This document shows positions 33,185 through 47,988 of a stretch of DNA of 64,000 nt, one piece after another; within the stretch, counting starts at the first letter, position 1, and the number at the start of each line of letters is the position of its first letter. The stretch is from positions 868,001 through 932,000 of the forward strand of contig NW_004457708.1 in assembly GCF_000203815.1 (NCBI RefSeq), read 5' to 3'. The notes under the pieces are model-generated. The model made no database searches, was not told the origin of the DNA, and saw only the letters and a list, made by a program, of their open reading frames with translations. This DNA comes from Cavenderia fasciculata (Eukaryota; Evosea; Eumycetozoa; Acytosteliales; Cavenderiaceae). The translations under genes and the position numbers were made by a program.

Positions 33185-33188
33185 AATT

Positions 33189-33270
<82 letters not shown>
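33185..33270. repeat. ATT/TTA trinucleotide run
   Basis: Nearly uninterrupted TTA repeats end in TTAG directly before the cupredoxin reading frame. The final TTAG could act as a splice acceptor for a leader intron. Confidence 0.8.
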
Positions 33271-33291
33271 GTGAGACTACTTTATGTGACA

Positions 33292-34611
33292 ATGATACTA
33301 TTGGTGCTTGGACAGTTGGTCTGGGCAGATGTTCGATTCCCACTTTTATATGATGAAAAAATAGCTCCTTCTCTCATGGTCGAAGTTGGCCAAGGTGTGC
33401 AATGGGTACGTAACCAAAACGACCACGAGAAACACACAATTGTCATAAAGAAGATTGGCGGCGACCAAGTTGCATCTTATGAATTTAACAATGATATCGA
33501 GCACGTTTTCAACTCGGTCGGAGAGTATCTCTACGAATGTTCCGAGCATCCAGATGCCCCCAAGTTCCGTATCTCTGTTGCCAACCCAACTGCAGAATAC
33601 CCAGGTGGTGTAACTAGCCAAGATCTTGCCAACAAATACCAAGAATCCATTAGACAAGAAGCCCAACAACAAGCTCTAGCTGCTCAAAGAAATCAACAAG
33701 GTCAACAAGATGCTCATAATGCCAATAATGGAAACAATGTCAATAATGCAAATAACGCAGAGAATGCCAACAATGCAAACAATGCAAACAACGCAAACAA
33801 TGCAAACAACGCAAACAATGCAAACAATGCAAACAACGCAAACAATGCCAACAATGCAAACAACGCAAATAACGCAGAGAATGCCAACAATGCAAACAAT
33901 GCCAATAATGCCAATAACGCAAATAACGCAGAGAATGCCAACAATGCAAACAATGCCAATAATGCAAACAACGCCAACAACGCCAAGAACAGCGATGATG
34001 CAGCCAACTGGGTTATCAAGCAATACACTGATCGTACCAACCTCTACAGACTCCAACAAGAAGAGGCCCATGAAGCCAAGGTATCTCCAAATGCTGGCCC
34101 ACGTATCGGTCCATTCCCAACCATCCCAGAGAATGTTGTCAACCAAGCCCCACTCAGTCAACAAGAAAGAGAGGAACAAGCTCAACAAGGTGCACAAGAA
34201 GCCAACAATGCCAACAATGCAAACAATGCAAACAATGCCAACAATGCCAACAACGCCAACAACGCCAACAACGCCAACAACGCCAACAACGCCAACAATG
34301 CAAACAATGCCAACAATGCAAACAACAAGCCAGACACCAAGATCAAACCAGATGCCAACGGTGCCAACAATGCAAACAATGCCAACAATGCCAACAACAA
34401 GCCAGACACCAAGGTCAAACCAGACACCAAGGTCAAGCCAGATACCGATGCCAAGCCAAAACCAAGCGAAAATATCGAACCAACTGTCGACGAAAACAAC
34501 AAAGAAACCAACTCTGATGCCAAAGAAGGTGACGCCAAGGCTGTTGCATCCTCTGTTGTTATTAATATTACATTACTTGTTGCCACTTTACTCGCTTCAT
34601 TATTACTCTAA
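33292..34611 (+). CDS. Secreted cupredoxin with Ala-Asn-Asn repeats and GPI-like tail
   Basis: 439 residues from the ATG at 33292. A short hydrophobic signal ('MILLVLGQLVWA') leads into a plastocyanin-like domain of about 90 residues: 'SLMVEVGQGVQWVRNQNDHE', 'KHTIVIKK' and 'EYLYECSEHPDAPKFRISV'. His of KHT, Cys of ECSEH and the following His fit a type 1 copper site; the usual axial Met is not evident. Two long tracts of (A-N-N)n, with occasional A-E-N, then K-P-D-T-K repeats follow; a conserved linker ('NWVIKQYTDRTNLYRLQQEE', 'GPRIGPFPTIPENVVNQAPL') separates the tracts. The last 25 residues are small then hydrophobic ('SSVVINITLLVATLLASLLL'), like a GPI-anchor signal. So a cell-surface copper protein on a flexible stalk is likely. 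The frame is open upstream to the TTAG at 33270, so a spliced leader exon adding 'RLLYVT' is possible. Confidence 0.8.
   Translation: MILLVLGQLVWADVRFPLLYDEKIAPSLMVEVGQGVQWVRNQNDHEKHTIVIKKIGGDQVASYEFNNDIEHVFNSVGEYLYECSEHPDAPKFRISVANPTAEYPGGVTSQDLANKYQESIRQEAQQQALAAQRNQQGQQDAHNANNGNNVNNANNAENANNANNANNANNANNANNANNANNANNANNANNANNAENANNANNANNANNANNAENANNANNANNANNANNAKNSDDAANWVIKQYTDRTNLYRLQQEEAHEAKVSPNAGPRIGPFPTIPENVVNQAPLSQQEREEQAQQGAQEANNANNANNANNANNANNANNANNANNANNANNANNANNANNKPDTKIKPDANGANNANNANNANNKPDTKVKPDTKVKPDTDAKPKPSENIEPTVDENNKETNSDAKEGDAKAVASSVVINITLLVATLLASLLL
33709..33990 (+). repeat. 9-bp coding repeat, Ala-Asn-Asn tract 1
   Basis: Tandem units of GCN AAC AAY (also AAT AAY, and GCA GAG AAT variants) encode A-N-N and A-E-N. 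Runs with the same order of synonymous variants recur (the A-E-N unit returns every 15 to 40 residues), a sign of higher-order block duplication. Confidence 0.85.
34201..34404 (+). repeat. 9-bp coding repeat, Ala-Asn-Asn tract 2 with KPDTK units
   Basis: A second run of GCN AAC AAY units, interrupted near its end by two K-P-D-T-K type inserts that continue as their own short repeat to about 34455. Confidence 0.85.
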
Positions 34612-43030: not shown

Positions 43031-44259
43031 ATGGTAGTCATGTCACTAGAGACCGATGAAATTGCAGCCATGGTTAGAAAATCTGGCACCAAATCAATGG
43101 TTTTTGCTTATGATGGAACCCGAAGAAGCCACCTTATCCAAGAAGTATCAAAGACTGGTAAGTTGTTTAAACTTCATTGTTAACCCCCACCCGCCCATCG
43201 ATGGGATGCCCTTTGAATTTTTTTCAAACAACCCAACATCCTTCCATCATTTTCTCATCCTTTCCTACCCCACCTTCACCTAACATTATAACCAATAATC
43301 TGAACTTGATTCATTACATGAATCATCAAAGGTTTCAGGTAAAAAATCAAAGGAGAAGGAGCTCAGGCCAGTTCCCATCGTCGTTGCGCGACACCCAACA
43401 TCGTCTTCGTTGTCATCAAATTCTCGATTTGGACCTTGTTTTTTGTTTTTTTGTAAAATTAATTAATTGTCCTCGTTTAAATTAATTAGAACCCTTCCCC
43501 CAACAACACCCCTCCAACCCAACCGTTCATCCAACCTACCGCGCACTCTTTCATTTGTCAACTGTTTTTTTTTTTGATTTTTATTTTTGGCTTCAAGAAG
43601 AATCTTCCCAAACGATTCATTGAAGTATGGGAATGATCATTCATTCCATTTTTAACATTTAGAAAGAGAGAGAGATAATTATCTCCAACAACACTTTAAT
43701 TTAATTATGATGGTCTTTGAATATTAATCTAAAATCTTTCTTTTGTTGATTTTCCTCTTTTTCTCTCTCTTTTTATTTGTAGAAGGACCAGATAGCGAGA
43801 AATTATCGATCGATTGGAACGACTATTCCAAAAATGCATTCAAAAAGATGTTAGAGATTAGTGTTTTGATGTTTGCACATGGATTACAAGAGATTACCTA
43901 TCCAATGTGGTTCCCAACACTAGGCAAGAGAGGCAAGGAATATACACCAAAGTTTATCTCTTATATGTGGGGATTGAACACTCTCTACAGTGACCCATAT
44001 CTTCGTGAAAAGTATGAGGCCGATGGCATTAGAATCATCTTTTATGGCGAGTGGAGAGAATTATGTCGTCTTGGTGAAGACCCAGAGTTGGAAAGATTAT
44101 TGGAAAAGATCCAAGAAGACTCCAAACACAGAACCAAGAATGTTTTATTGTTTGGAACAAATATCTCTTCTCCTGCAACTGTTATGGCTAATCTTGCTAT
44201 TGATCATTACAAGAAATATAATAAGAGTATGAAATCAAATTAAAAAAAAAACAAAACAA

Positions 44260-44291
<32 letters not shown>

Positions 44292-44982
44292 GTATGATAG
44301 TTTAAATATTAACTTTTTTCTATCTCTATTTTTTATTTCTATTTCTATTTTTATTTTTAGCACCAACAAGAGAAGAAATGATTATGGATTATTATGGGTA
44401 CCCATTATCAGATGTTGATATGTATGTTGGATTCGATAGATTTGTAACCGATGGAAGACCACCAATCATTTCAGAGAATGGAAATGAGAATCTTTATTTT
44501 ACAGTTTCTCCACACTCCTTTTTTAATATCTCTGTTGTATGTATAAATATTAAAATAATATATATATATATATTTGATATTTAATTATTTATTCTTAATT
44601 TATTAATTAATTAATTATTTGTTTGTTCAATATTTATTTATTTATTTAGTTGAGATCAATTTTATTTGATCATTTATTTAATAGAACAGTAGCAAATACT
44701 AAAGAGTATGATTTAACTAGATTGGATATCAAGAGTATGCACTCATTCTATTCTAAAAACGAAAAGACTGCTCTTGGAGTTGGTAACATTCAATTAAAAG
44801 GTAATTTCTGGTATCCAATGTCTGACATTAAAATGTCGACTTCATTCATTTCCAACTCGTCCGACAAATCATCCAAACACAACAGCAGCAGCAACAACAA
44901 GGAACTCTCTCCTAAAAAGATGACAACTTTGACTAAACTTATGAATCAAATCAATGGAGCCAGCCGAAAACAAAAACATTGA
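43031..44982 (+). CDS. Tuberculosinyl-transferase-like protein (Rv3378c homologue, cis-prenyltransferase fold)
   Basis: Inferred exons are 43031-43157, 43783-44226, 44361-44536 and 44650-44982, giving 359 residues. Landmarks line up in order with mycobacterial Rv3378c as I remember it: 'VFAYDGTRR' (FPFDGTRR there, with the catalytic Asp), 'MFAHGLQEITYPMW' (FEHGIETVISPIF), 'IRIIFYGEWREL' (VHVLFYGDYKKRL), 'TPTREEMIMDYYG' (PPTRREIIEGYYG), 'DMYVGFDRF' (DMFIGFGRF), 'LYFTVSPHSFFN' (LYFTVAPSYYM) and 'LRSILFDHLFNR' (LRRILYDHIYLR). Rv3378c moves the diterpene tuberculosinol onto adenosine or water and has a UPP-synthase-like fold. The amoebal protein probably handles an isoprenyl diphosphate, but substrate and acceptor are unknown. 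It has no signal peptide; the extra 60 residues are a Ser/Asn/Lys-rich C-terminal tail. The first intron, 625 bases, is unusually long. The homology spans all exons and crosses the splice sites cleanly, which supports the gene model. Confidence 0.82.
43158..43782 (+). other. Unusually long first intron (625 bases)
   Basis: Starts GTAAGT and ends TTTGTAG. Most introns in this window are 60-230 bases. It contains C-rich patches and is richer in C than neighbouring introns. Confidence 0.65.
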
Positions 44983-45507: not shown

Positions 45508-47988
45508 TTAATTTGACATTTTATCAAATGAAGCACCACCAGAACTTTCATGTGGCATTGCAACTGTGTTGGCATTGAAATGATAGAACAATGGGTAATT
45601 GAGAAGATTGAGATAATCGGAAGTGTAGAGATCGGCGTATCTTTGAACTTGCATAGAGAAGAAGGTGGCATTGGAACCACTCTTGAAAAGACTGCCAAAG
45701 TATTTGTTGTAGGCTTCGTTCAACTTGTTGGTGGCTTCTTTGATGTGTTGGTGCAACACTGAAATATCGGGTGGAGTGGTCGACTCACTGTCCAATCCAC
45801 GGTAGATTTCGGCTCTGATAAACTCGAGATTCAACAAATGAATGTTTGTGTTTTTCTGTTCGCCCAAGACACGCAATTCGTGTTGCAGTTCTGGTACGAC
45901 CAACAAGTTTCTCCATCCATGTGACTTTTTCGATTTGATAATGTCGGCAAAGATGTGGTCACCAGTGTACAAGACACGGTTGCCCTTGGCACCAGTCAAC
46001 TTTTGGAAAAGTGACAATGAACCGCCGTGGTATACCTTGCCGGCCTCGAAACGGTCCTTGACGTGGGTGATCATCAGGTTGCCCGTGTTAATGTCAACCT
46101 CTCGGATGGTCGTGCCCTCTGAGAAGAATCTTGGCTTGTCGGCACCGACAATAATCACATCAAAGTAGTCTCTCCACGACTTGTACTTTGGATTGGTGTC
46201 GTTTAACAAATAAGACATCACCTTGTTGGTGTAATAGAATTCACTATTGGTCAACAAAAATACCTTGTTATTATTTTGTCTTAATCTATCAAATAATACA
46301 TTTGCTTGTGTCTTTTTAATATATCTAAAAAAAGGTAGAGGAAAGAATTTGTTATTAATAATCAAGACTATCAAATCAAGAATATATATTGATTGATTTA
46401 CCTTGGCATATCATCCAAAACTTTAGATTTAAGAGTACCATCGTTATGAACAAGATCCATAGCTTCTCTGAGATCTTGGAACAAGTTGGAATAGGATAAA
46501 TCACCTACGTTGTTTCCTTTGATGGCTTGAATGGTTGGCTTTGGAACATCGGCACGTAAAAGTTCCAATGGTGGTGAGTTGGCTTGTTGTTGTTCTTCGG
46601 CAAGTTCCTCTGTAATCTTTAAATTGGATTCAGTTTCAAAGAATTCAACTAGATCAGCATATAAACTGGCTTCTGGTAATGTAAATAATGTATTTAATAA
46701 ATAGAATCTAAATTTGAAATAATAATAAATAAATAAATTAGACATAAATTAAATAAATATTTTGTTTGTTTTCTTATATTACCTTCTACCAATATCATCA
46801 TTTGGAACTCTCATTGATGGATAATATTCATAAGTTTCCTTTGATGTATAGGTGGTTCTACCATGAATACAGAGGGCAATGTTACCAAAACTATCGATTT
46901 TGAGGAGATTACCCAATTCCTTGTCCAAGAACAAACCTCTGATTGGGAACTTTGGATCGTAACGAAGTTTTTTGATGGTGGTTGGGTAACCCAATCCAAT
47001 CAATCTCTCGAGTACCATATCATAAGCCAATTCCTCAAAATCTGGTGAATTGTAAACTGCAATAGTATAATCCATATCGACTAAAATTTAAAATAAGAGA
47101 CATAGATAGGATTAATAAAAAGTTCCATCATTCTCTTTTGAACCATTTGTTTTGTTTTTGCATACATCCATAAAATTCGATACGGTCTAATCTAAGATCA
47201 CGGTTTACAAAGATTCTCTTTAACATTTCTCTCTTGTGGATTGGTGGTAATGAAGATGATGGTACATCCTTGTAGTTTCTTAATTCTTCATCAGTTGGTG
47301 GATTTGATAAATCATCTAATAAAAGAAAAAAAAAGGAAATAATAATAATAATAAAATAAATATTAATATTTGGGTTCCAAGATATAGTGATTGATATAAA
47401 TATTGACATACTCAATGAAAATTGACCCAATTTGTTTGTAGTACCTGGAGAAATGATATTTTCTGATTTCTTGCCGTCTTCCCTATTGATATGATGATTA
47501 TTATTATTTAGTTGATAATTATTATTATTATTAAAGTCAAAATGATGGTTCATTTTGATTGGTTATTTTAAAGTAAAAATAATAATTATAATTAATTGAA
47601 TGTTTAATAAGGTATTAAGGTAGAGTAGAAAGAGGTAGGTAGTAGGTAAATAAATAAAATTATTAAAGTATTAAAAAGAATAGAAAAAAAGGTTAATTAA
47701 CTTTGTTACCAATGTATACAGATATTTTATTTCATCTCTATTCATCTGTTCATGCCATTCCATTCATAATCCTATTTGTTAAACTCTCATTGTTGTTGTC
47801 GCCTTCTTTTTAAATCCCTCCAAATGAATATGAAATAACTATATATGCTATGCCTATGCCTATGCCTATACAATACAATACAATGATACATACTCTTGTC
47901 TTCTCTTCTCCATCAACATACCAGCACTTGAAGTACGGAGTTGAGTTTGGAGTCTTGGAGCATGTGGAACATCTGGTGTTTGTGACAT
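45508..47988 (-). CDS. Cytosolic purine 5'-nucleotidase (NT5C2 type, HAD superfamily)
   Basis: Inferred exons, in transcript order, are 47988-47894, 47482-47412, 47315-47166, 47080-46783, 46707-46402 and 46324-45508, giving 578 residues, close to human NT5C2 (561). The HAD nucleophile motif 'FYGFDMDYTIAVYNSP' is built across an intron; 'FLLTNSEFYYTNKVM' is motif II, and 'YTGDHIFADIIKSKKSHGWR' carries the motif IV Asp. 'VNRDLRLDRIEFYGFDMDYT' is a family signature. The enzyme dephosphorylates IMP/GMP in the cytosol. The start at 47988 ('MSQTPDVPHAPRLQTQLRTS') gives a family-like length. An alternative start at 47553 in the preceding intron reads in frame into the second exon with an Asn/His-rich leader, so two mRNA forms are possible. 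Confidence 0.9.

Follow-up and report, generated by a model that had tools for sequence, protein, structure and literature searches.

The genome of the social amoeba Cavenderia fasciculata (31.0 Mb in 21 contigs) encodes a member of the Rv3378c-type family of terpenyl transferases and synthases. The gene lies on the forward strand of contig NW_004457708.1, at positions 43031–44982 of the 64,000-nucleotide stretch analyzed here (contig positions 868,001 to 932,000; termed the window, whose numbering is used throughout). Its four exons join into an open frame of 359 residues and a stop, and both the frame and the GT...AG introns proposed in an earlier note, made from the letters of the DNA alone, were confirmed. 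The gene is a real, old and host-owned homologue of Rv3378c of Mycobacterium tuberculosis: a eukaryotic variant of a known family that, as far as could be seen, is without the usual cyclase partner.

Among Protein Data Bank (PDB) chains, Rv3378c is the only significant match of the amoeba protein (phmmer; E 2.9e-29 to entry 3wqk, 3.2e-29 to 3wqm, 1e-28 to 3wqn and 3.1e-28 to 4kt8), with the next chain at E 0.036. A six-row dictyostelid profile matches Rv3378c at E 2.7e-54 over profile positions 4–302. The amoeba protein is 26.7% identical to Rv3378c over 281 columns, and the phmmer alignment covers its residues 9–296, thus crossing all three splice junctions, as the earlier note had maintained. 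That note counted seven motif blocks while naming six; the six named are found at residues 28, 129, 192, 210, 235 and 250 and align to Rv3378c in order. Structure prediction gave a cis-prenyltransferase-like fold nearest to Rv3378c (tuberculosinyl transferase/tuberculosinol synthase; PDB 3wqk, 3wql, 3wqm, 3wqn, 4kt8, 4cmv, 4cmw and 4cmx), with which the amoeba protein shares full-domain homology. Unlike Rv3378c, the amoeba gene is eukaryotic and spliced, has a low-complexity tail and has no detected partner cyclase gene. No Pfam family exceeds its cut-off for the amoeba protein and no NCBIfam family matches it; a match to the restriction-modification family PF18273 (E 0.023; its 15.4 bits fall short of the cut-off, 25) was taken as noise. 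Across 56 family members, Pfam gave weak matches only, and weak NCBIfam matches (NF005683 in six members, best E 3.4e-4, and two further families in one member each) were likewise taken as noise. Given only such weak matches, a curated model for the family seems not to exist.

The putative active-site residues are retained. The amoeba protein has the GTRR loop (YDGTRRS, compared with FDGTRRW in Rv3378c) together with D28, Y57 and Y96, which align with D34, Y51 and Y90 of Rv3378c. The DGTRR motif is encoded at 43112–43126, and the codons of Y57 and Y96, counted from the coding sequence, lie at 43824–43826 and 43941–43943 (all forward strand). Residue tallies refer to 102 aligned rows, compiled without open frames shorter than 230 residues, duplicates, locus L019 and short recuts. 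Of 18 dictyostelid rows, 16 or 17 retain the loop and the three positions. Y51 is present in 17/18 dictyostelid, 74/75 main bacterial and 5/8 distant rows, and Y90 in 17/18, 75/75 and 7/8, respectively. At position 34, Rv3378c has D, as do 16 of the 17 dictyostelid rows with a letter there; 74/75 main bacterial rows have N, and the eight distant rows have G (five), D (two) or N (one). Since both tyrosines were changed to phenylalanine in substrate-bound entries of Rv3378c, to judge by their titles (Y51F in 3wqn; Y51F/Y90F in 4kt8), it can be inferred that Y51 and Y90 matter for turnover. One paralogue, P0112 of Dictyostelium citrinum, reads K where Rv3378c has D34 and again where it has Y51; this copy is probably inactive.

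Ten named dictyostelid species carry the gene: C. fasciculata, Acytostelium subglobosum, Heterostelium album, Tieghemostelium lacteum, Polysphondylium violaceum and five Dictyostelium species. They include species of all four dictyostelid groups, in keeping with the old origin suggested by the earlier note. The older species names in the study cited next are taken here to denote the same species as these carriers. A passage of that study places its six species in groups 1 to 4 and speaks of branches parting 600–400 million years ago (PMC6156593). In the gene tree, the dictyostelid homologues form one clade. One side of it unites C. fasciculata with Acytostelium and a Heterostelium protein, the other T. 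lacteum with the Dictyostelium species. Protein P0014 joins the T. lacteum/Dictyostelium side; that placement aside, the branching is what inheritance from a shared ancestor would predict. C. fasciculata has a single copy by own-genome search, whereas two or more copies each occur in D. discoideum, D. citrinum and Heterostelium. In the Heterostelium protein P0015, which carries an F-box name, a homologue without the DGTRR stretch runs on into a long additional portion; it is perhaps a gene-model fusion. No other eukaryote appears by name in the 17-protein search described below or among the 120 listed of the 2346 matches obtained with the enlarged profile.

The bacterial side of the family was reached indirectly. 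With dictyostelid rows alone, a scan of genome contigs was empty and a protein search returned 17 proteins, one of them clearly non-dictyostelid (the metagenomic protein P0017); only once P0017 was added to the profile was the bacterial family recovered, with at least 2346 matching proteins among 8000 scored candidates. The 120 matches listed comprise 14 dictyostelid or dictyostelid-like proteins and 106 others, three of which carry organism names, all Chloroflexota. A pattern scan of the genomes of 84,980 species yielded 65 loci, 64 from Chloroflexota by title and one from Legionella erythra; it rests on two short patterns, returned no mycobacterial locus and is not a census. Sampled rates were 24/400 for Chloroflexota genomes, 49/396 in the class of Longilinea, 2/143 in the Legionella order and 1/398 for Pseudomonadota (the query genome itself); Actinomycetota were not included in this sampling. 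No enzyme relative was found in viral contigs or phages, or in 72,556 plasmid records; cyclase relatives occur in 147 plasmid records, those listed being ~29–31% identical and mainly from rhizobia and Streptomyces.

The Chloroflexota proteins are a median 28.7% identical to the amoeba protein (75 main bacterial rows) and share its conserved residues, but have N at position 34 in all but one row and mostly occur with a cyclase and a histidine kinase. Names given to related database proteins (JGI names) include tuberculosinol/isotuberculosinol synthase and adenosine tuberculosinyltransferase. A class II diterpene cyclase relative is present in 63/79 locus records, within 100 bases in 48/79, and a histidine kinase relative in 60/79; the records include some duplicates (e.g. 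L062/L106) and ones shortened by contig ends, and minus-strand distances are rough. The 16/79 records with no cyclase relative include cut contigs and the distant loci L099–L102. The DxDD pattern was seen in eight of nine neighbouring cyclases inspected. In L110, the one locus tested with Pfam, the homologue is followed by the cyclase, a histidine kinase and a response regulator, and this arrangement recurs in L009, L012, L035 and other Chloroflexota loci. In Legionella erythra, an open-frame homologue stands beside a cyclase that reads in two pieces (L062, 10001–12572), and a second, broken copy lies elsewhere (G001:C24:243473-244314). Distant homologues lie near or adjoin a haloacid-dehalogenase-type hydrolase (L099, 4897–5853 and 8557–9213; L105, 5161–5844), which we liken to the presence of Rv3376 in the Rv3378c locus, described in a passage of PMC11476799. 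A passage of PMC7180734 suggests Rv3378c-like enzymes of the microbiome as the source of marine diterpene-purines, for which the Chloroflexota gene pairs are candidate makers; no paper joining agelasine and Chloroflexi was found in the open-licence literature.

The Rv3378c-type gene had been described as restricted to mycobacteria. Loci L103 and L104 have the order cyclase–homologue–methyltransferase, an order that agrees with that of the O-methylkolavelool cluster. From this gene order, the kolavelool synthase of Herpetosiphon aurantiacus (HaKS) is taken to belong, probably, to the distant branch with G at position 34; if L103–L105 represent the HaKS branch, it is distant in the tree, has that residue and stands beside a cyclase. 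HaKS is likened to the amoeba protein here by description, not by sequence (passages of PMC8131916 and PMC9440906): it is described as a member of the cis-prenyltransferase family that hydrolyses an allylic diphosphate (PMC8131916). If HaKS, already in print, belongs to it, the Rv3378c family is already known outside mycobacteria.

Rv3378c itself groups with three Chloroflexota loci in each of three trees (99/92, 100/91 and 100/100); its identity reaches 49.6% with the best of these loci and 32.7% with the best dictyostelid protein. The main tree was built from the 102 rows after dropping the dictyostelid rows P0015, P0016 and P0112, and contains L081 and L087 on very long branches; further trees used 69 rows, with the bootstrap not settled, and 63 rows. 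While homology to Rv3378c stands, Rv3378c is not the closest relative of the amoeba gene in the trees, and the two look like separate branches of a larger family. In the three loci nearest to Rv3378c (L109, L110 and L111; G477, G414 and G163), a class II diterpene cyclase adjoins on the same strand. That of L110 matches PDB 6vpt ("Cyclase"), which we take to be Rv3377c, at E 1.7e-150, with the next chain at 2e-45. Chloroflexota loci of this type are a candidate source of the gene pair for 1-tuberculosinyladenosine (1-TbAd). The origin of the TbAd genes has been assigned, in a passage of PMC11476799, to plasmids of plant-associated bacteria by base composition; the grouping of Rv3378c with Chloroflexota and the lack of enzyme relatives among the plasmid records bear on this question.

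A six-frame, exon-by-exon search of the C. fasciculata genome, a scan envisaged in the earlier note, found no class II diterpene cyclase. PF13243 occurs at one locus only, read as an oxidosqualene cyclase, and the partner cyclase query had no match in a search without a positive control. Class I terpene synthase matches lie at three places in the genome; a passage of PMC6156593 gives two class I terpene synthase genes. Because the partner cyclase was not found, the amoeba gene is not filed as a tuberculosinyl transferase: within the limits of these searches, the absence speaks against products of the tuberculosinyl kind in particular. This leaves two options: an acyclic prenyl diphosphate as the substrate of the amoeba enzyme, or a cyclase that the searches missed.

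The best overall explanation, which we regard as fairly probable, is that C. fasciculata has a single-copy nuclear gene of bacterial origin for an Rv3378c-family enzyme that uses an acyclic donor and passes the resulting cation to a nucleophile. The gene would have passed from a bacterium into a dictyostelid ancestor. The enzyme would hold Mg2+ near the DGTRR loop, ionize an allylic diphosphate, and hand the cation to a nucleophile rather than to isopentenyl diphosphate. The donor may be acyclic, most likely geranylgeranyl or farnesyl diphosphate, because the cyclase adjoining most of the bacterial genes was not found in the amoeba genome. Several points weigh against this explanation. Trees with the dictyostelids within the main bacterial clade and with them outside it could not be told apart (p 0.424, with low supports), so that the rooting of the family and the transfer direction proposed here are tentative. 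Several dictyostelid rows fail the composition test of the tree program, so the support values overstate how securely these rows are placed. Of the cyclase searches, only that with PF13243 has a positive in the C. fasciculata genome, and a cyclase search that comes back empty is uninformative unless some genome is known to give a match. D34 alone does not define the chemistry, since it is N in most bacterial rows and G in most distant ones. The substrate and product of the amoeba enzyme rest on prediction.

The acceptor could well be water, although the chances fall short of even, in which case the enzyme would be a terpene-alcohol synthase yielding, for example, a geranyllinalool- or geranylgeraniol-type alcohol. 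The Herpetosiphon enzyme, known here by description, is an imperfect precedent, as it presumably has G rather than D at position 34. The formation of tuberculosinol and kolavelool is described as hydrolysis of allylic diphosphates in a passage of PMC8131916, and the Herpetosiphon enzyme is described as taking C16 building blocks in one of PMC9440906. Somewhat more doubtfully, the acceptor might be adenosine or another purine, with a diterpenyl or sesquiterpenyl chain joined to adenosine or adenine, as Rv3378c does. D34, Y51 and Y90 are all kept in the amoeba protein, and D34 sets Rv3378c and the dictyostelids apart from all but one of the main bacterial rows. Dictyostelids make the prenylated adenine discadenine, which favours purine chemistry, but it arises from another, known isopentenyltransferase. 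Rv3378c is the tuberculosinyl transferase making 1-TbAd in a passage of PMC11476799, whereas kolavelool synthase is described in one of PMC8131916 as using water. Some other acceptor is rather unlikely, and an enzyme with no prenyl chemistry improbable.

A single direct transfer linking the dictyostelid and mycobacterial genes, for instance through amoeba–mycobacterium exchange, is very unlikely. It would explain the D at position 34 shared by both where nearly all main bacterial rows have N, and a joint dictyostelid–Rv3378c clade is not rejected by the approximately unbiased test (p 0.0912 and 0.136). However, the joint clade is 22.4 and 16.5 log-likelihood units worse, and Rv3378c stands with the Chloroflexota loci in both tree and identity; a dictyostelid gene sister to Rv3378c is thus disfavoured, though not rejected. 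Still less credible is a conventional cis-prenyltransferase that makes dolichol-type chains and merely resembles Rv3378c. Cis-prenyltransferases (UppS, DHDDS) have the fold in common with the amoeba protein but no detectable sequence match: with E values of up to 1 allowed, the Pfam cis-prenyltransferase domain matches neither the amoeba protein nor any of the 56 family members, and none of the eight PDB sequences matched with E of 10 or less is such a chain. With the structure also clearly nearer to Rv3378c, both the sequence and the gap in Z led to the rejection of this alternative. Bacterial contamination of the assembly, in favour of which the relatives found outside dictyostelids are all bacterial, is refuted by the three GT-AG introns, on which the earlier note had already relied, host-like G+C (35.9% in the coding sequence, 33.5% in the window), flanking open frames of eukaryotic type (e.g. 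tubulin-tyrosine ligase and oxysterol-binding protein families) and the single clade in ten named dictyostelid species, taken together.

Relatives of Rv3378c are thereby shown in a eukaryotic group for which genetic tools exist, as well as in dozens of Chloroflexota genomes. Dictyostelium offers a tractable host for asking what Rv3378c-type chemistry does in a phagocyte, and the Chloroflexota loci with Rv3378c-like and Rv3377c-like genes side by side are a concrete candidate for the bacterial source. That social amoebae have made a prenylated nucleoside or purine with an Rv3378c-family enzyme ever since the group arose is an unlikely proposition; if true, terpene-nucleoside chemistry would be ancient in bacteria-eating amoebae and in free-living Chloroflexota, and the tuberculosis lineage would have turned it against the lysosomes of macrophages at a later date. 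In the open-licence literature, Rv3378c and Dictyostelium co-occur only within one reference list, though a subscription paper could exist; no paper joins tuberculosinyl and Chloroflexi, and diterpene synthase with Anaerolineae leads only to another enzyme, by the start of the abstract.

The gene model departs from the public one near its end. Exon 1 (43031–43157) encodes residues 1–42 and the first base of codon 43 in an open frame, with a GT donor at 43158. Intron 1 (43158–43782) is followed by exon 2 (43783–44226), an open frame whose own-genome search matches residues 42–191, intron 2 (44227–44360), exon 3 (44361–44536; open frame and own-genome search) and intron 3 (44537–44649), each intron having GT...AG splice signals. 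Exon 4 (44650–44982), supported by its open frame and the dictyostelid alignment, carries the conserved WYP motif, the low-complexity tail and the stop. The public model DFA_04055 (P0001, 357 residues) is identical through residue 302 and is spliced differently afterwards, dropping the WYP that the four-exon reading retains at residue 303. The W and P are invariant in 6/6 aligned dictyostelid proteins, so the four-exon reading is better supported on this alignment, and the loss of WYP in DFA_04055 is probably a wrong splice. The convergent neighbour (45508–46410, reverse strand) encodes a 5'-nucleotidase family protein (PF05761, E 1.7e-90), a purine-linked enzyme; the idea that it acts in the same pathway was weighed and set aside, its position being probably due to chance. 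At 33187–34611 on the forward strand lies an open frame with very long Asn-Ala repeats.
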